Source: Coptis chinensis (lineage: Eukaryota; Streptophyta; Magnoliopsida; Ranunculales; Ranunculaceae). From it: a stretch of 64,000 nt of DNA. This document shows, piece by piece, positions 20,093-55,961 of the stretch (within the stretch, counting starts at the first letter, position 1; each line of letters starts with the position of its first letter). Made by a program: the position numbers and the translations under genes. The notes beneath the pieces were generated by a model. The model was not told where the DNA came from. It ran no database searches and saw only the letters and a program-made list of their open reading frames with translations. Where the stretch lies: positions 72,883,501-72,947,500 of the forward strand of contig CM027384.1 of assembly GCA_015680905.1 (NCBI GenBank). The letters are read 5' to 3'.

Positions 20093-20097
20093 AGAAC

Positions 20098-20677
20098 TGT
20101 AATGACACTAGCGACAGAGAATTATATGGGAACAGAGAGAATGATCAGAAATTCGACGATGGTTTGAGGCGCGCAGATAACACTATCCTTAAGGTGTTAT
20201 TTGCCCCACTACAAGAGTTTGCTATTGGGTCTAGGCAAATTACCTCCAAGATACAACAAACCATAGAATACTGCGATTAGCAATACTGAAGAATTCTCAA
20301 AGCACTCTAATGAAACTTGCATTTGAAACTAAATATTGGAGGGAGAGGGAGAGAGATAATGAGAACATGACTCATTTCCTTATTACATAGGCTCTCTTTA
20401 TAGAGTTTCAATGTTGAATGAACAAACACACCTCTTCATGGATACCTTTTGGATGTACACACCACTTCAATGTATGACATGTGTATGTTCCTTACATTCA
20501 TTTGAAAGAACACAACAATTCTATTCTATTTAACTGTTTGGGATTCAGTTATAGTAACTGCAATTTCTCTGCTCATACATGAATGTGATCAGGTGCTCTA
20601 ATACATTGGACAGGATCCAATGCATCCAAGTACTACCAATATATAGCTTCTCAAACTATAATACAATCTCACCAATA
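20098..20677 (-). repeat. LTR, left arm (minus orientation)
   Basis: A 580-bp LTR whose U5 end (..CA) is at the outer left edge. Its inner start reads TATTGGTGAG on minus instead of the TGTTGGTGAG seen in the right arm, a one-base change of the terminal dinucleotide. The adjacent polypurine tract identifies it as the former 3' LTR. Confidence 0.82.
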
Positions 20678-21016
20678 ATCCCCCACTAGATTGTAATATA
20701 GGCCAATGCCTTTCCTTGGCAATTAAAATCATAATAACAATCCCCCACTAGATTGTAATATATGTGCAGTCTCAACCTTGGGATATCCTCATGAATACAA
20801 GATGGTGTCTTTCAAGTTAAACCATCAATTAGTGAAAGTATTTCAGAGTTTCAATGAAAACAATGGTGGCCTTAGCTAATTAAACCAAGTTTTCTACATG
20901 TCAGAACTAGAAATACTATGCACATGAATTATCTTTGTTTCTTCAAGATGCTTTCAACTTGTGTTAGCACTATTAAGGCCTTGTGCTTTAACTTGTGTTA
21001 GCACTATTAGCACTAT

Positions 21017-21592
21017 TGTTGGTGAGATTATATTATAGTTTGAGAAGCTATATATTGGTAGTACTTAGATGCATTGGATCTTGTCCAATTAATGTATTAG
21101 AGCACCTTATCACATTCATGTATGAGCAGAGAAATTGCAGTTACTATAATTGAATCCCAAACAGTTAAATAGAATTGAACTGTTGTGTTCTTTCAAATGA
21201 ATGTAAGGAACAGACACATGTCATACATTGAAGTGGTGTTTACATCCAAAAGGTATCCATGAAGAGGTGTGTTTGTTCATTCAACATTGAAACTCTATAA
21301 AGAGAGCCTATGTAATAAGGAAATGAATCATGTTCCCATTATCCCTCTCCCTCCAATATTCAGTTTCGAATGCAAGTTTCATTAGAGTGTTTTGAGAATT
21401 CTTCGGTTTTGCTAACCACAGTATTCTATGGTTTGTTGTATCTTGGAGGTAATTTGCCTAGACCCGATAGCAAACTCTTGTAGTAGGGGCAAATAACACC
21501 TTAAAGATAGTGTTATCTGCACGCCTCAAACCTTCGAATTTCTAATCATTCTCCATGTTCCCATATAATTCTTTGTTGCTAGTGTCATTACA
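21017..21592 (+). repeat. LTR, right arm (plus orientation)
   Basis: A 576-bp LTR beginning TGTTGGTGAGATT and ending GTGTCATTACA. It is the inverted counterpart of the left arm, with scattered substitutions and small indels. No internal retrotransposon sequence follows it; the next bases are the target duplication. Confidence 0.82.
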
Positions 21593-21616
21593 AGAACAAC
21601 CTCAGTTGCTCTACAA

Positions 21617-21965
21617 AGTCAACTACTACTTAACATGTGTATGTGGCATATATCTAACTCGCATTGAATGTTATGGTGTACCTTCAAAACCAAATTTCAT
21701 TGAGCAAATCTACATAGACACTTCCATATTTTTTTTCAAGGCACATAGCACATAAGCACTGAGAGTGATCAGAATTCAAAAAAACATTCTGGATAATGCA
21801 ACTCCCTGACGACCAAAGGAAGCAACACATGAGGACTAAAAAACACAAATCCAACTACTGCTGAACATATGTATATGGCACATATATAACTCGCATTAAA
21901 TGTTATGGAGTACCTTCAATTCATAAACAAATTTCATGGAGCAATATACATAGACATTTCCATAC
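21617..21965. repeat. 232-bp offset direct duplication
   Basis: A block starting AACTACTACT..AACATGTGTATGTGGCA at 21621 recurs diverged at 21853. Both contain ACTCGCATT-(G/A)AATGTTATGG-(T/A)GTACCTTC. It is non-coding. Confidence 0.6.
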
Positions 21966-22746: not shown

Positions 22747-24915
22747 ATGGCATCGACAGATAGAAACGTAGAAGGGGAAGATGAGCAAGGAGATCTCTCA
22801 AGGGTCAGAATAGAGAAACTCCAAGCTGACATGAAAAATTTATTTTGCTCTAAGGAAAAACATGTGGTGAAGATTGGATGCAAAAACCCCAGAGATGTCC
22901 ACACAGGTCACACAACCTTGGTGGGGAAGCTATATGGAGGAAAACATATATCACTACAGGACTTTGCAGATGAAGTGCATAGATGCTGGCAAATCAAGGG
23001 AGAGACCAAGATAGAAGTTATATCAAAAGGACTCTATAAAATGGTCTTTGCTGAGGTAGAAGAATATCAGCATGTCAAGAAAAATGGACCTTGGGTGATC
23101 CAAGGATTTATTCTCTCCATTAAGAAAGGAGATGATTTGGGTAGCATGGGAGAAGATCGGAGCTTTGATAGAGTGGACTTCTGGGTGCAGATCTTTGGCC
23201 TCCCAAGAGATCGCATAAATGAGAAAAATGTGCACGCAGTGGGTTCAACTCTGGGCAAAGTCAAGGGGATGGATCTTCATTGTTCATCAGCCTTCAAAAA
23301 CCCTGTTGCAAGGGTGAGAGTGCGTATGGACATCAAAGAGAGGTTGCTCAAAGGTATAGAGTTGAGTACGGAATTGGGTGAAGTAATCTTTGTCTCCTTC
23401 AAATATGAAAAGCTATAAATCTTTTGCTATTTTTGTGGATGTATTGGGCATGATATACATTACTGTAGTATCAGAGAAAAACATAGCTTGGAGATGAGGA
23501 AGCTGGGAGGCTCTCCTAGAGATATAAAAAACAATTTCTCTTTTGGTCTAAGAGCAAATGTTTTCTACAATGGCGATGTTGTGCCAATCCTAGCCTCGAT
23601 TACTTTTTCGGGTCCTCCTCAAAAACCTAGGATGGATCAAATTCCAGCTAGGAACAGAAACCCACCTGGGAAGAAGCTATGGAAGGGAGACGGGCTATGG
23701 TCACCACCACTGAAGGATGCTCAGGTGGCGGCGAGTGTGGAGGTCAGGTCAAAGGGTACAGAGGGTATTTCAGAGGGTCTGACAGAGCACATAACGGATA
23801 CATCAGTCTGGATGATCACAGAATCAGTGACCGTTGGGGAGGCTGAGTTGGGCAATGCCTCTAATAGGGGGGTGGACCTGGATATGACTGAGTTGGAAAA
23901 GGCCCATGGCTCAGGGGCCAAAGCTGGACCGCTGGACCCAGATCTGAGATTAGAAGAGTCTTGTGAGGCCTTGGTGCTCTGGAGCCCAAGTTCGGGTATG
24001 ATGGATATGGACCAAGGAAAGGTATTAGAAACAGGGGCTTGCAATCAGAAACAAGAGTATAGGATGATTCTTCGAGAAACCACAGCTGGAGAACTAAGAC
24101 AGATAGCTTTAAAAGATGAGTCTTTGGGAATAGGACCATCTCCTGTGGATGATCAGGCTACGCCGACCTCTCTATTGCTTTTGTCGGAAACCATCATTCA
24201 CAATTTTGAGAACACCAAGCCTGATGTATCTCACCAATCCACCTCACCAGTTGGAAGAGAGAGCGCTTGTTTCAAGTTCACAGGCTTGCCTACACGTGGA
24301 AGGGGTTTTAAAATGGTGGTATCTCGAGAATGGGAAAGGTATTGTTTGAAGATGGTAGCAAAGCAATCTAAGAAGGCTAAGAGGGAGGCTGATGCGCTTA
24401 GGGAACAAGGCCTAGGGCATATGTTAATCCCTGAAGAGGCTCCAGTGATTGATATCTCTAGTGATACTGGGGCGTCTTTGGATCCCTCCACCTCAAGCCG
24501 GTCTCTCAACCCCAACATACCCTCTGATCTCTCAGACCATAGTATTCCAGAAGATCAAATTCCTTCGGATGCCTTCACAGAATGGGGAGAGGATTTATAC
24601 TCTGAAGAGAGGGGCCCAAGCTTGGAAGTTCAGAATGTGGCAATGCAAGAGGAAGTAGCATTAGATTTTGCTCCAGTGGATCTTGTGCAAGGGAGTCTTG
24701 AAGAAGGCGGACATGAATCAGAAGATAGTATCTCTTTGGTCAAGCAACCTCAACCTTTAGTAGTAGATGACTCGTTTGTTAAGAGAAGAGCTTCTTTCAA
24801 AGGGAAGTATCATAGTACAGGGGAGAGTTCTTTTGTCTCCAAGAGTCCAGAGAAGATTCCCAGTGAGTATGAGAAAGCTAAACTGGGTGGGGATAAGTCT
24901 GATAAGTCCGATTAG
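22747..24915 (+). pseudogene. LINE ORF1: DUF4283 / CCHC zinc-knuckle nucleic-acid-binding protein, one internal stop
   Basis: The frame opens at 22747 (MASTDRNVEGED). DUF4283 covers roughly residues 30-220 (GKLYGGKHISLQDF..KGLYKMVF..NGPWVIQGFILSI..DFWVQIFGLP). A TAA at 23416-23418 interrupts it. The same frame then continues at once with FCYFCGCIGHDIHYC, a C-x2-C-x4-H-x4-C zinc knuckle, and runs to 24915 through a long acidic, low-conservation tail. ORF1 proteins of plant L1 elements bind element RNA. The only visible lesion over 2.17 kb is this one stop. Confidence 0.85.
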
Positions 24916-24980
24916 TTGGGGTCCGATGTCTCCTCCGGGGTTCATGTAGTAGCCCCAATAACAAAGCTGCCTTATCAACC

Positions 24981-27900
24981 ATGATACAAGCCTGAAATTG
25001 CCGGGGAATTAGTTCCTCCACGGCAATTCAAAATCTAAAGGACTTAATAGGTAAGTTTGATCCTGATATAGTATGTTTGTCTGAAACAAAAGTGGGATGT
25101 GATAGGATACAGAAGATCAATAGGATGGTAAAGTATAGTGGTTGCTTTAGTGTTCCAACTTTGGGTCGCAGTGGGGGGCTAGCTGTGCTATGGAAAGATG
25201 GGGTGGATCTGGAAATTTTGGGAGCTTCAAATAACCAAGTGACAGGTAAACTTAGCAACTATCATTGTAATAATACCTGATTTTTCTCCTTTGTGTATGG
25301 CGAACCGGTTGCTAGTAATAGGCATAGAGTGTGGAATGAGCTCAGGGAAGTTGCCAATTTGATCCCTGGACCTTGGTGTCTCTTTGGGGATTTCAATGCT
25401 ATTACTTCCCTAGATGAAAAGATAGGAGGGAATAACCTTATTAGTAGAAGCATGGCTGAGTTCACTGAGTTCATTAACGACCTTGGTCTGTTTGACTTAG
25501 GTTTCAAAGGCCCTAAGTTTACATGGAGCAATAATAGAAGACCTCATGACCATATTATTGAGAGGCTTCACAGAGCCTTGGCCTCGGAGGATTGGATTCT
25601 CCAGTTCCCCAACATGAAAGTCACAAATGTAGTTAATGCCACATCTGACCATCTATGTCTTATGATCAACTTAAATACTACTGCTGATGTTAATATGAAG
25701 CATGAAAAACCTTTTAGGTTCTATGAAATCGACCCGGCCCTGATGCCCTGTGATCTTCTAACGCTTGGAACTCTATCACACATGGGTTGTCTGATGTTGA
25801 GGTCATCCTTAAACAAAAAATCACTCAACAACACCTTACTATATGGAATAAAAAGGTGTTTGGAAATATTTTCACTAATATTAATAAAGTAAATAAGGAG
25901 TTGGATCATGTCTTGCAGAAACCCTTCTCTTTAGCCAATTATGAAAGAGCTAAGGTCTTAAAATTAGAGTTGTTGGATTGGTTGGGTAAGGAGGAGAGTT
26001 TCTGGAAACAAAAATCCACAAATCATTGGCTGAAAGATGGTGGGAGGAATACTAGATTCTTCCATCTCTCAACCATATATAGAAGAAGGAAGAATAATAT
26101 GGAGAGGCTCCAAAAGGAAGGGGGAGGCTGGAGTGAGGGTAGAGCTGAAGTGGGAACCACTATCAACTCATACTTTAAAACTTTGTTCAGCTCTGATCAC
26201 CCTCAAGTTAATGAGAATATCCTCAGCCTCTTCCATCCTTGTATCTCTGATAGGGAGAATGAGAATCTCATTGCTGTTCCTACTTCAGAGGATATTTGGA
26301 GAGTGGTGAAGAAGATGGGGAGCCTCAAAGCTCCTGGCCCTGATGGGTTCCAAGGTTGCTTTTACCAAAACACTTGGGATATTGTGGGCAAGAGCATTGT
26401 AGCCTTTGTAAGGGACTTCTTCATTAATAGGGTCCTAAACCCTACCTTTAATGAAACTTAGTTTCGCTTCTCATTAGTAACCCTGAGACTGTGGCAAACT
26501 TTAGGCCTATCAGTTTGTGCAATTTTTGCTACAAAGTGATCTCCAAGATCTTAGCCAATAGGCTGAAGTGCCATTTGAATAAGATTGTTTCCCCCTTCCA
26601 AGGGGCTTTCATTAAGGGAAGGAATATAGGGGATAATACTGGGCTGGCCTGTGAGCTGTTTCATCACATGAAACACATGAAAAATAAAAGGCATGGGTGG
26701 ATAGCTTTAAAATTAGATATGGCAAAAGCATATGATAGGGTGGAATGGTCCTTGGTAGACAATATATTTGAGAGGCTGGGTTTTAATTCATCCTGGAGGA
26801 GTATGATCCAACAGTGCCTATCCACTGTGTCCTTCAGAGTGCTGCTGAATGGCAGCCCTTTGGACAAGATTACTCCTGAGAGAGGCCTTAGACAAGGAGA
26901 CCCCCTGTCTCCCTATCTGTTTATCATCATGTCTGAAGCCCTCTCTAGGATGATTGCTAGAGCTGAGGCTGAAGAACTTATCCATGGGATCAGGATAAGA
27001 AGAGCCTCCCCCCCTATCTCTCATCTCCTCTATGCGGATGACCTCATCTTATTCACTAGAGGAAACCTAGAGGAGGGGGGGCAGCTCAAAAGGATTCTGC
27101 AAGAGTATTGTGCTGCCTCAGGACAGCTCATAAATTTTGATAAGTCCAACATGTTTTGCAGCAGAAATATCAAGTTTAGAACCAAACTCAAGCTGAAAAA
27201 GTTCTGGAAAATGAGGTTGTTTGATCCCAAGGATAAATATCTGGGTATCCCCATTATGCTTTCCCATAAGAAGGCAGAGGACTTTGAATATTTAGTAAAC
27301 AAAATACACAATAAGATTAAGGGGTGGAAAGCTAAGGTGCTATCACAGGCTGGAAGGGCTACCATGATCCAGTCTGTGATACAGGCCACACCTTTGTATG
27401 TCATGGCTACTTATATGCTCCCTGTATCTACCTGTAACAAGATAGATAAAGCTTGTAGAGACTTCTTCTGGCATGGAACTGAGGAATCGAAAAGTGTCCA
27501 CACCATAGGGTGGGATAACTTGTGTACACCCAAATCTGTTGGAGGGTTGGGATTCAGAAAGATGAGGGATATGAACCTAGCTATGCTAGCAAAACTTCCT
27601 TGGAAAGCAGCTACGGATATTAACTCTATATGGACTAAAACCCTTGCTAGCATCTATGGTAAAAACTGGATTGGGGATGTCTAGAAGCCCCCTGAGTATG
27701 CTTCTTTCTTCTGGAAAGGCATACACAAAACTTTCAATCTTATCAGTGGGGGACTGATATGGGGGATTCACAATGGACAATCCATTTCAATTTTGGATGA
27801 CCCTTGGGTTGTTAGTAATGGACTCCCAAAAACTTTGAGAGAGTTAGGAGTAGAGGACTCCAGGCTAACTGACCTCCATGTGAATGAGCTCTTCAAAGAG

Positions 27901-28990
27901 GATAGGACTGGGTGGGATGAGGCTAAAATCACAGCTTTATTCCCCCCTATCCTTGCTAACAGAATAAAATAAGTGGTGATCAGACCTTTGAGTTTGGGGA
28001 AGGACAAGATGGTCTCGGGAGCTGAAAAGTTCCGGCAAATTCATCGCGGAAATCACTTTACAAGTATCTTACCAAAGATAAAATTGTAGGGCAGAGTTCC
28101 AGCTTCAACACCAAGGCAGTTAAGCTTCTCTGGAGAACCAGATTGCCAGCTAATATCCTGTTGTTTTTTTGGAAGGCTTATATGGAGACCTTACCAATGG
28201 GGGATAGGCTGACATCTAGGCATATGCTGGGAGATTTCTCCTGCCCTCTATGTGAAACTATCTTGGAAAATGACACCCATCTATTCTTTGAATGTGAGTG
28301 GTCTAGGGCCCTGTGGTTCACATCAGAACTGGGCCTGAGAATGGAGGTTCATGGAAGGAATGGGGTCAGAGATTGGATTTATAAGTTCCTAAGATGGAGT
28401 CAGAAGAAGAAGCGACAAGAATCCCAAGTCGGGTACAAGCATGCTATCTTCAGATAACATCCGGAAAGCCGTAAAATGAAGCCAAGTTCGAGCATAGACA
28501 AACCTAACAGGGAAAGGATAATAAGAAGAAGTGTTGTAACCAAGCTTAGCCGCATGCCAACTTGAGAACGAGCTTTAACCGCTCATGATCTCCCGATGCT
28601 AACCTTGACTTTGATTCAAAGTTCTTTGTTATACCTAATGAGTGTATTAATATTAGGTTTGATGCCTCTTTTCGTGCAACAACCTGGAAAGGCCAGCAGG
28701 AGCAATTGCTTGGAACAAAGTGAAGGGATGATAGTGGAGCCGGGCACTAGAAGGTACCAAGCCGATCGCCAGAGGAAGCCGAGATGGTGGCGGTTTGAGG
28801 TCAAGCATTAGCACTAAATTCGGGATGGATGAGCTTTTGGTAGAGGGAGATCAGATAGCAAGTATCAAGGCTCTTAATAGGCAAGATTGTGCTTGGCAAA
28901 GATGAGAGTCCGAGAAACTATGTGCTTAGATTAAGCTCTTCTTTATCTTTTGTAATTTTAAGTGGGTTAGCGTAAAAGACAATGGAGAGG
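24981..28990 (+). pseudogene. LINE ORF2: endonuclease, reverse transcriptase, zf-RVT and RNase H, multiply broken
   Basis: The start is probably ATG at 24981. The expected Trp before NCRG is a TGA stop at 24993. The endonuclease follows (DIVCLSETKV, a second stop at 25278, then LFGDFNAI, FTWSNNR, TSDHLC). The frame shifts near 25740-25790 and again near 26455. The reverse transcriptase then shows LKAPGPDGF, ANFRPISLCNF, KLDMAKAYDRVEW, GLRQGDPLSPYLF and the catalytic YADD (27031-27042). A TAG at 27682 replaces a Trp. The zf-RVT domain lies at about 28020-28340 (RLPANILLFFWKA, CPLCETILENDTHLFFEC). Scattered RNase H pieces (RFDASFR, EGDQIASIKALNRQD, NGEAHLLAKWA) extend to about 29000. Confidence 0.88.
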
Positions 28991-51629: not shown

Positions 51630-54600
51630 ATGACGAAAGAAGAGATTATCTTCATTGCCTTGGTCTCATTTCTTCTCGTGATCTCACTACAACCAGTTAA
51701 AGCTTCGAAATACAATCATCACTATACAGTTGGAGAAATTGTCCCCTTCTTTGTTAACAAGATTGGTCCTTTGAACAATCCAAGGTATACCCTTTTTCTA
51801 ATTCTAGCTTAATCTCAATTTACTTTCAAATCACATTTTCTGATGTTAATTGATATTGTATAGTTGAATTCATTCAAATGTGTGTAATTAGGGTTATTGA
51901 ATCTTGCATTGTTAGGATCACTATTTAAATTACTTTTACCGAAAGATTTTCTGTTGGAGTAGCTGTGATTTAGGGTTTGTCAAGTGTTTGAATAGAATAA
52001 TGCAAGATGGAGTCTGGATTTTGATTTTCTTGAATGGTTTTTAGTAATCTTGAAGCAAGTTAATATATTGTTATGTATTTTATCTTGCGAAATCCGCTGT
52101 TCTTAGGAGAGTGGCTCAAGTAACTGTGTTTTAGTAATGAAATGATGTGAAGTGGTGGACAATATATGAATTAAAACGAATTGATCTATAAACTTTAGGA
52201 GAACTTCAATGGTACATTGATGCCATGTGTTATGTTCACGCATGAGTCTTGTAGGTTTTATGAGGTAGAGTCGTGGGTTTGAGATTCTAGCTCTTTGGTT
52301 GTGTCTTTGTGTTAATTACTAAATCATACTCACATTGCTAGTAATAGACTAAGACTTTATGGTTTTCCAGCTAGTAAAATTTTAGGTTTTGGAACTTTGT
52401 ATTGGTGGAGACAATTAGTCAATATCCTAGGTTGGATAGTGTATACTAGCTAATATTCTTAGTTGTTTTACAAGAGATTTTGGCTCTGTGGAAAGTCCAT
52501 GCGGATCCCGTGAGAGTGTTAACTTTGACTAACTGTAAGGCGAGACAACTGAGTAACAACTAATAGGTGTTAGAGGAATATACAGGTTTTCACATAAAAA
52601 GGAGAGCACATACTGCTCCTTCTAGGGCTACACAGATGATTATGTTATCATCGCTTATTCTTTTCTGCAGTTTACTTTTTCCTTATTTCTGATTGATTTG
52701 AACCCCTGTAGTATCCTTCGAGTCTGCACTGTATATGCTTCTACTTCTTTAATTGAAATACTCTTGTTCTCATACTATCAACTATCAAGTACTGACATAT
52801 AAACAGAAAATTGATTTACATAGATATGCATGACATTGTTGTTATTGATGGTAAGTAGCAATTAATATCTTTTAGGCTGTAGGTTCACTACACTTCCATT
52901 GTTTTGACGTATTCTGTCTTCTCTCTTGCAGTGAAACATATCAGTACTTTGACTTACCATTTTGCCTCCCAGGTTGGTCTTATTCATTAGAAAAAAAGAA
53001 GTCGTGCTAAGATCACTACTAGAATTGGAATTATTTACGTTAATAAGTTTTCATCTGTCAGGTAGACAATATTAGCCCTCAGGAACAACACCAATCGGAT
53101 GATCCAGTCGTTTACTTTAACAGACACTGTGTCGTGTGTGTGTGGGTGTGGGTGTGGGTGTTTGTGTGTGTGTGTGTGTATGAGAGAGAGAGAAAGAGAG
53201 TTTAAACTTTTTACTGCTGCCCTTAGTTTTTTAATGTAAACACAAGCTTTGAATGGTTGGATCATCCGACTGATGATGTTATTGATTTATGCTCCATCTG
53301 AGGTGATATTTCTGTTGTTTACACTCAACTAGAAGATCAGATAAGGGTTAAACTACCTACACCTTTGACAGCCAACAACTGCACATTCATTAAAAGATAC
53401 ATTTTGAGAAGTTATTATTCGAGGCATTCTCAAGCCTGGGGTTATGGACTCACCTTGCTTTTAAATTGCAGATCGGGTAATCGAAGAGACTGAAACCCTT
53501 GGGGAAGTTCTAAATGGTGATCGCTTAACCAACTCTCTGTATGAGATAAGGTTCAGAGAGGACAAAATTCTAGAGAGCATTTGCAACAAGTCTTTAAACA
53601 GAGAGGAAGTGGAAAAGTTCAGGGATGCTGTCAAGAATGATTTTTATTTCCAGATGTACTATGATGATCTTCCCTTGTGGGGGTTTATTGGGAAAGTTGA
53701 AGAGGAACTGTGGAATCATCCTGAGACAGGGCGTTGTTATCAACTCTTTAAACATGTAGAATTCAACATCCTTTACAATGAGGACCGAGTCATAGAAATA
53801 ATTGCTCTTAGCGATCCAAATTCTTCCGTGGATATTACTGAAAATGCTAATACAAACGTTGAGTTTACTTATTCAGTGTCCTGGAATGCAACCTCAATTC
53901 AGTTTGCGAATCGGATGAGAAAGTATCTAAGATCATCCTTACTGCCAGAGCAACAGCAGGCTCATTGGTTCTCAATTATCAATTCCGTTGTCATTGTTGT
54001 GCTTTTGGCAGGGTTGTCAAGCACGCTTTTCATACAGAACCTAAGAAATGAACTTCGCAAGTATGATACTGTTTTTCCTCTTTTAATTTGTATTGCAATT
54101 GTTGTGTGCTAGGTTGTTAATCTTATTGTCTATTATGTCAGTCTAATCTTTACCAAAACTTTTGCAGGTACTCTGACGAAGATGAAGAAACAGAGAAAGA
54201 GGAGGTTGGTTGGAAGCACCTCCATGGTGATGTATTTAGATACCCTCCAAACATATCCTTATTCTGTGCTATCATGGGAAGTGGTACTCAGCTTCTGACA
54301 CTGTAAGCTTTTCCAACTATGAAACAGTCTTATTTTTCCTTGAAGTTTGTGCTCGATCACTGAATGACTTTATACTGTGAAATATACAGTTTATAATTAC
54401 TTTTAGATCTTCAGTTCGAGTCATTTTAAGTCCATTAGATCATTAGTATTGCCTTAGCTACTACATATGTGGCATACATACAAAGTGGTTATGAGTTATG
54501 ACTTCACACTCTAGTTTCTCTGAGTCATGATATCTGGCTGCCTGAATAGTGACTTGGTGACATATATTGGTGTTTGTTGTAAAACTTAGCTGGACTGTGA

Positions 54601-55961
54601 CAAGTCATCTGATGCTTTTACGGTTTTGACACTGGATGTCCATTCATAACCCTTTCTGATGCTCCCTTCTCCTTTATTGACATTGTTGCATACAAACTTC
54701 AGATTGTAACTTAAAAGGTGTGTGTATTCTTTGTTCAGGTTTTGCTTCCTATTCGTTCTGGCATTTCTGGGCGTTATCTATCCTTACAATCGTGGTGCAT
54801 TGTATACATCTTTTGTTGTGGTATATGCTCTTACATCTTTCATTGCTGGGTATACTGCCGCCTCATTTCGCACTAAGTTGGCAGGAACAGGACAGGAAGT
54901 TGTATGTCCACATAACTTTTCCTACTTTGTGTCACTTCATAGTTTCTTAATTATCTAACCTAATATGTCATAATTTGTTTCTTGCAGACAAAAAGTGTGT
55001 ATCTGACTGGTGTCCTCTACCTTGGCCCGCTGTTTTTACATTCGCTGTGCTGAACACAGTTGCCATTTCTTACCGGGCTACAGCTGCACTTCCATTTGGC
55101 ACCATAGCTGCATTATTCCTAATATGGACAGTTGTCGTTATCCCATTTCTCTGCGCAGGTGGCCTAATTGGGCGTCTCTATAGTTCTGATTTTCAGGCAC
55201 CTTGTGCAACCAGGAGAATGCCTTTGGAGATTCCACCATTACCTTGGTACAGAAAGATGCCCACTCAGATATTTCTTGGGGGTCTACTTCCATTCAGTGC
55301 AATATTCATCGAATTACACTACCTGTACGCAAGCATGTGGGGTCACAAGATCTTCATTGTGTATAGCATTCTGTTTATCGTGTTCATCATTCTCATCCTA
55401 ATCACCGTAATCTTGAGCATTGGGTTCACATACTTCCAGCTTTCTGTTGAAGATCATGAATGGTGGTGGAGGTGTGCATCCTTGTTGAGATCTTTTTTAA
55501 CTTTATAATATTAAATTACTAATCATGTTAAAATGTTCTCTGCCGTCTATGCTATTTGTATTTATCTTCTTGGGTATAAGTTTTTAGTCGTCTACTTTGT
55601 TCTTCGTATGGTTATTGCATGCATATTTATACTTAGATGATGACTCACCCTGAACAAAAGCTACACCCTTCTTTTTTATTCTATCTGCTTTACGTTATGA
55701 TCTATATGCCATACTGCTTACATGTATCTCTGACTTTGATGCAGCTCTCTGTTACGTGGAGGCTCAACTTCGGTTTTTATGTATTCGTATTGTTTCATCT
55801 TCTACGGCAGATCAAGCATGAGTGGATTCCTGCAGCTATCATTCTTTTTTGGCTACAATGCTTGCATATGCTATGCATTCTTTCTAATGCTGGGGACCAT
55901 AGGTTTCTACGCTTCCTTGCTATTTGTTCGCCATATTTACCGGGTTGTTAAGTTGGAGTAA
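51630..55961 (+). CDS. Transmembrane nine (TMN/endomembrane 70) protein, about 594 aa, with an apparent 1-bp frameshift
   Basis: Exons: 51630-51784, 52932-52972, 53472-54060, 54168-54302, 54739-54901, 54988-55471, 55745-55961. The order is a signal peptide (about residues 1-26), a lumenal domain (VGEIVPFFVNKIGPLNNPSETY, LPLWGFIGKVE, FTYSVSWNAT), then nine membrane segments including YPYNRGALYTS, ATAALPFGTI, PPLPWYRK, LPFSAIFIELHYLYASMWGHK and EDHEWWWRSSLL. The C-terminal KLE fits the K-x-D/E COPI/Golgi-retention motif of plant TMNs. Within exon 6, KSVYLTGVLYLGPLF is in one frame and FAVLNTVAISY in the next. One base seems missing at the T5 run 55033-55037. Either the allele is broken or the assembly dropped a T. 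Phases agree everywhere else. Confidence 0.87.
53137..53200. repeat. GT/GA microsatellite in TMN intron 2
   Basis: (GTGTGTGGGTGTGG)-type and (GT)n repeats are followed by (GA)n, a compound simple repeat in the intron 52973-53471. Confidence 0.85.

Follow-up and report, generated by a model that had tools for sequence, protein, structure and literature searches.

Two inverted Copia LTRs with outward U5 ends inside one target-site duplication: a candidate chimeric cDNA insertion in Coptis chinensis

Results

The locus and the two arms of the unit

The window, that is, the whole stretch of 64,000 nucleotides analysed here, corresponds to positions 72883501-72947500 of contig 8 in the Coptis chinensis assembly (936 Mb, 116 contigs), and this same assembly was the genome searched. 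It contains a unit made of two long terminal repeats (LTRs) in opposite orientation, bracketed by the 5-bp sequence AGAAC at 20093-20097 on the left and 21593-21597 on the right. To the right of the unit, the plus strand carries LINE-type pieces at 22747-28457 (DUF4283, RVT_1 and zf-RVT, with Exo_endo_phos below the cut-off). Exon-like pieces of an EMP70 (endomembrane protein 70) gene are found further on, at 53465-55508, also on the plus strand.

Inverted arms were located mechanically at 20098-20679 and 21015-21592. Using the alignment of the two arms, the LTR edges of other copies and a junction query, the inner LTR edges were corrected to 20677 and 21017. The left LTR (20098-20677, minus strand, 580 bp) is a 3' LTR, as indicated by a polypurine tract at its U3 end and by its match to the 3' ends of other copies. 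The right LTR (21017-21592, plus strand, 576 bp) has TGTTGG as its U3 start. In both, U5 points outward, the outer edges of the unit reading TGTAATG... on the left and ...CATTACA on the right; an earlier note had described two opposite-facing LTRs with U5 at both outer edges, and mechanical repeat detection and arm alignment alike bear this out. The LTRs have TG..CA ends and a 5-bp target-site duplication (TSD), the U3 start of the left LTR, TATTGG, being one base off TG.

Aligned in the U3-to-U5 sense, the arms are 92.8% identical over 587 columns (545 identical columns, 28 substitutions and 14 gap columns), or about 95% identical at aligned bases. The substitutions comprise 21 transitions and 7 transversions, and the K2P distance is 0.051, which would correspond to 2.0 to 3.9 million years by two substitution rates from the literature. 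By context, 6 of the transitions fall at CG, 6 at CHG and 8 at CHH, with 1 unclassed; as raw counts without a computed background, these are compatible with decay of methylated DNA. The divergence of about 5% between the arms (28 of 573 aligned bases) makes an assembly artefact from a hairpin read unlikely.

The interior of the unit is asymmetric: polypurine tracts and 3' internal sequence lie beside the left LTR, and neither lies beside the right one. A motif search of the unit, made with the motif generally known for primer-binding sites (PBS), found no PBS of the initiator-tRNA type, the best site having 3 mismatches of 12. The unit is therefore not a direct LTR pair with a PBS and a polypurine tract between its members, since its LTRs are inverted and the polypurine tracts are confined to the left side.

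The left half is the end of a Copia element, and the right half begins at a natural U3 terminus

The left half of the unit represents the 3' terminal part of a Copia element of low copy number, broken at 20987. A polypurine tract, AGTGGGGGAT on the minus strand (20678-20687), adjoins the U3 start and occurs at the same place, with small changes, in copies L010-L013. The 300 bp that follow, up to the breakpoint (20688-20987, minus strand), have counterparts in the 3' internal region elsewhere in the family: the copies on contigs 9 and 4 match without a break, and that on contig 6 is split. Past 20987, all four copies that hold this place (L010, L011, L013 and L018) run on alike; local alignments of the unit reach 20995, beyond the breakpoint, by weak likeness. 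A further polypurine tract lies within the internal region at 20740-20749 (minus strand). It is 62 bp upstream of the tract at 20678-20687, and LTR edges show that it marks the LTR start of some family members. Both tracts are apparently used in the family: the element on contig 4 (L012) and L022 start at the upstream one, and L015, L019, L025 and the right arm of the unit at the other.

The right LTR starts at TGTTGG with no polypurine tract before it. The same six bases begin L009, L015, L016, L017, L025 and L027, each lying beside unrelated DNA, although L016 and L017 seem to derive from one duplicated insertion; L019 starts at the same edge with one base changed (TATTGG). As this start recurs in other copies, the right edge is the natural U3 terminus of a cDNA, and not the edge of a random deletion.

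Parent family and copies in the genome

A search with the unit returned at least 81 matches in the genome. Among those listed, the best matches elsewhere were at C4:27249048-27249942 (91%, query 6-903), at C9:17844676-17845444 (95%, query 132-903) and at C6:29879079-29879881 (92%, query 17-807), where query 803-903 matched separately at 29880368-29880468. The Copia assignment of the parent family, made earlier from the letters of the window, was supported by the domains of the copy on contig 9, whose open pieces are broken and were each read separately. They follow the Copia order, namely Retrotran_gag_2 with zf-CCHC, Pol_BBD, rve, SH3_retrovirus and RVT_2; in L029, Retrotran_gag_2, rve and RVT_2 stand in separate open pieces in that order. 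This copy (C9:17839861-17845444) has an apparently split 3' LTR, the U5 end of which lies about 39 kb off, at 17884850-17884996; the split was probably caused by nested insertions. If L026 is indeed the far end of this LTR, the sequences on the two sides of the copy are GAGTT and CAGTT, matching at 4 of 5 positions.

Five other members of the family have 5-bp duplications, read by eye: TGAAG for the element on contig 4, and CTAGG (L015), GTAAC (L019), TATTA (L025) and GCTGG (L022) for solo LTRs. The members flanked by CTAGG, GTAAC and TATTA share both LTR edges with the right arm, while those flanked by TGAAG and GCTGG have the same U5 edge and start 62 bp further upstream. Since duplications are found at the edges of these members, the edges of the unit are true LTR edges.

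An LTR tree was built from 17 rows, made up of both arms and 15 of 19 LTR stretches (L021, L023, L026 and L027 were excluded as split or short); L028, which has no LTR edges, was also left out. The arms came out as sisters, weakly (63/84), with a path length of 0.052. A similar divergence was seen between L009 and L010, which we treat as the LTR pair of the element on contig 9, with end branches of 0.031 and 0.024. Judged from the tree, the sisterhood of the arms would fit two cDNAs of one parent, and the arms may also stem from two different parent copies.

At the place of the PBS just after the 5' LTR, L009, L014 and L020 lack the initial TGG. In these three of the four copies, 13 to 15 bases there are complementary to their own U5 (with one mismatch in L009), which were not seen in L012. 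This complementarity hints at an unusual primer or a stem between U5 and leader.

A templated filler at the junction

Between the breakpoint of the left element and the start of the right LTR lie 29 bp (20988-21016, plus strand) that are absent from the parent copies at that point. They are a templated filler, and the source is the last 40 bp of the left element itself. It was copied in two steps: 22 bp from around 20953-20975, of which 20 bp are exact with 20956-20975, followed by 7 bp, GCACTAT, from 20967-20973. The 20-base exact copy was reached in none of 10,000 shuffles, the longest match obtained being 13. As read by eye, the first jump has a TGCT overlap with one source base missing, the second a TTA overlap, and the joint of filler and LTR a shared T, or ATT if the cDNA kept two bases before TG. 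This pattern is of the kind that iterated short priming leaves. In a report on Arabidopsis, filler made by repeated short priming is called a hallmark of theta-mediated joining, with a microhomology of about 3 bp (PMC10923293). The junction agrees with such a scar in having a templated filler with short microhomologies, the overlaps being those read by eye.

The filler bears on the proposal, also made in the earlier note, that the unit arose by autointegration, that is, by insertion of the element into itself before or during integration. Autointegration does invert segments in Ty1 and retroviral circles (PMC4751563). However, it yields a circle in which no U5 end is free, the strand transfer is clean where the unit has 29 bp of templated filler, and the right LTR is not followed by a PBS. 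We consider this origin improbable.

Uniqueness of the junction

It had been suggested that other copies with the same inverted junction be sought; among the matches listed, none of the 22 other places spans it. A 201-base query covering the junction gave 23 listed places, and the junction was spanned at only one of them, the unit itself. Four of the 22 other places match the element side, three stopping at query base 96 and one at base 90. The remaining 18 match the LTR side, 15 of them beginning at 115-118 and the others at 120, 132 and 155. Likewise, among the 39 LTR matches listed, only this unit forms an opposite-strand LTR pair within 20 kb. There is no sign in the assembly that the unit has multiplied, and it looks like a single-copy accident. 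A non-autonomous fold-back family moving in this form would have ends and a duplication that suit a Copia integrase, but it is hard to reconcile with a junction spanned at one of 23 listed places, and is the least probable of the origins considered.

Outside the genome, plasmid sequences gave no match to the unit, and phage sequences yielded four records only, at 2-3% coverage and an E value of 0.5. Exact 18-base and 21-base patterns had no match in viral contigs, nor did the 21-base pattern in genome contigs. No Rfam family matched within the unit at gathering scores.

A second rearranged member, L018 (C1:83362531-83363857), combines an inverted LTR piece with internal 3' sequence that has an interruption of about 600 bp. 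The two are joined by a 3-bp overlap, CAC, without filler. Its ends are truncated, the order of its parts differs from that in the unit, and a duplication is unreadable. This shows that other kinds of inversion occur in the family.

Evidence for insertion as one molecule

The earlier proposal that a single AGAAC duplication encloses the whole unit was found to be correct, AGAAC being present at both outer edges. The chance of any match between flanking 5-mers is about 0.0013, based on composition. The flanks were also compared with the genome. The left flank had one other listed match, at C8:73430194-73430488 (77%). For the right flank, 19 rows were listed, including itself, and two fall at the place of the left-flank paralog: C8:73430513-73430695 (82%) and C8:73430046-73430157 (88%). 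Contig 8 thus has, at a distance of 0.53 Mb, a paralogous site that lacks the unit. When the flanks were joined with one AGAAC and compared with this site, they formed a gapless block of 207 columns, 173 of them identical, with the single 5-mer AGAGT in the paralog at the place of the duplication. The alignment score was 402.5 with one AGAAC, 399.5 with two and 397.5 with none, so that the preference for one is small. As the joined flanks align without a gap, the host sequence is complete, which fits a single insertion. The insertion of the unit as a single molecule, argued earlier from the duplication, is therefore supported by one TSD and by a gapless empty site, although the comparison is with a paralog rather than an ortholog, and in repetitive flanking DNA.

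The host DNA beside the unit is tandemly repeated (21613-21728 and 21845-21964), and the paralogous stretch, L048, also matches the second tandem copy in part. The right flank aligns with L048 at 3-131 with 594-722, against 255-443 with 614-796. Only the first copy, which adjoins the unit, covers the 20 bases at the joint.

These data can be set against two explanations in which the inverted arrangement arose in the chromosome. In the first, an element and a solo LTR of opposite orientation were inserted independently and then joined by a deletion. Plant genomes commonly contain solo LTRs and deletions (PMC1950507, Table 1), and a filler junction can mark a deletion. Such a history would nevertheless require a chance AGAAC match (about 0.0013, as above) and a deletion endpoint placed exactly at an LTR edge, and it conflicts with the lack of missing host DNA relative to the empty paralog; it is strongly disfavoured. 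In the second, a normal element was inserted at AGAAC and an internal inversion followed. This would retain one target duplication, and L018 does have an inverted LTR piece beside internal sequence, but with truncated ends and a different order of parts. An inversion would also require a break exactly at the border of LTR and TSD, and leaves unexplained both the 29-bp templated filler and a right LTR with neither PBS nor polypurine tract on either side. We regard it as still less probable than two insertions.

Discussion

Proposed origin

Taking the two halves, the filler and the single duplication together, we propose that the unit arose when a chimeric cDNA of a low-copy plant Copia retrotransposon was inserted, and put the probability of this reading at roughly 60%. 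In normal integration, the ends joined to the target are one U3 and one U5. Here, a plant Copia integrase may have carried out one concerted insertion by way of two U5 ends, the cDNAs having been fused by theta-type joining before or during integration; we hold the odds on this more specific scheme to be even. One cDNA, broken or unfinished, would have had an open internal end; microhomology priming, at TGCT and then at TTA, would have extended this end, which would then have been joined to a second linear cDNA at its free U3 end. The joining agent would most likely be host end joining of the polymerase theta type, the alternative being jumps of the reverse transcriptase; from the junction scar alone, the two cannot be told apart. 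Integrase would then have inserted the fused molecule by two U5 ends, each the 3' LTR end of its cDNA. In an equivalent order of events, integrase would insert the two U5 ends first, and the host would join the distal ends later. Finally, the direct LTRs of the second cDNA would have recombined, so that the right arm became a solo LTR without PBS or polypurine tract. We infer this chain of joining and solo-LTR formation; the last step would be traceless, and neither a third LTR nor a second PBS or internal region remains. Today the unit is probably inert.

Of the other origins named in the earlier note, autointegration and later inversion fit poorly, as detailed above, whereas template switching may have contributed but does not on its own give the exact U3 start of the right LTR. 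A fuller version, in which the unit is a single aberrant product of reverse transcription, deserves attention. An unfinished minus strand (U5-U3-polypurine tract-internal) would be linked, following template jumps, to its own plus-strand strong-stop LTR at the 5' end of the latter, yielding a hairpin, then a linear duplex with two U5 ends, which is integrated. Neither a second cDNA nor a solo-LTR step is needed, and arms identical at birth, the restriction of polypurine tracts to the left, the exact U3 start of the right LTR and the absent PBS are all accounted for; the filler repeats could be slippage of the reverse transcriptase. Against this, a ligation and then a duplication of the hairpin must precede integration, and filler that runs in the same sense as its source requires that the complementary template strand was still present. 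We judge this route unlikely, though well above the chromosomal and autointegration origins.

Comparison with known systems

DIRS elements have inverted terminal repeats, encode a tyrosine recombinase and make no TSD. The unit resembles them in having inverted terminal repeats on a retroelement, but its 5-bp TSD and the rve integrase encoded by its relative speak against membership.

Closer parallels exist among LTR retrotransposons. Complex insertions produced by template switching, Copia included, were described by Sabot and Schulman (2007, PMC1950507). As proposed here, more than one RNA or cDNA was fused before a single integration, leaving one outer 5-bp TSD. Their insertions, however, have three direct LTRs and result from a jump between R regions (PMC1950507), while the unit has inverted LTRs and a filler at a cDNA end. 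A third internal LTR and two direct core regions, as in their insertions, are not found in the unit, which lacks one internal region. The autointegration products of Ty1 and retroviruses share with the unit the inverted LTRs derived from cDNA, but they are circles with clean strand transfer (PMC4751563), and the unit is linear and chromosomal, with a filler junction. EVD in Arabidopsis ddm1 mutants is likewise a plant Copia element with truncated or chimeric cDNA and a TSD on some insertions (PMC10462705); in that report, truncated insertions have two LTRs, and its main text nowhere uses the word 'inverted'. The capture of T-DNA by polymerase theta leaves templated filler and microhomology of about 3 bp (PMC10923293), the substrate being T-DNA according to that report, whereas in the unit it would be retrotransposon cDNA.

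In the titles and abstract openings covered by the literature search, no plant insertion with inverted LTRs and one TSD was found. Where wording on inverted LTRs did turn up, it concerned a marker method (PMC2151762) or recombining yeast LTRs (PMC5065131). Complex plant Copia insertions with one TSD, autointegration, and truncated or chimeric cDNA insertions are known; the unit, with its inverted LTRs, U5 ends and templated filler, is a variant of these.

Significance and the predicted hairpin

The unit preserves a datable record of an abnormal integration. It suggests that an inserted molecule may have U5 at both of its ends, and that templated filler may link cDNA ends while the locus is still unsealed. 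If this is general, pairs of LTRs with outward U5 within one TSD in plant genomes would gauge how frequently host end joining competes with integrase for retrotransposon cDNA.

As RNA, the unit would form a long hairpin, with a predicted fold of -1009.8 kcal/mol (given without a shuffled comparison at that length). A TATA-like motif, CTCTATAAAGAG, presumed to be a TATA box, is found in the right LTR (21293-21304, plus strand), and the left LTR carries its counterpart in mirror position (about 20394-20405, minus strand). Both putative LTR promoters face outward, so that a transcript across the unit would require an outside promoter. If such a promoter read through, the long inverted repeat might act as a silencing seed, and silencing in trans by the hairpin is a possibility.
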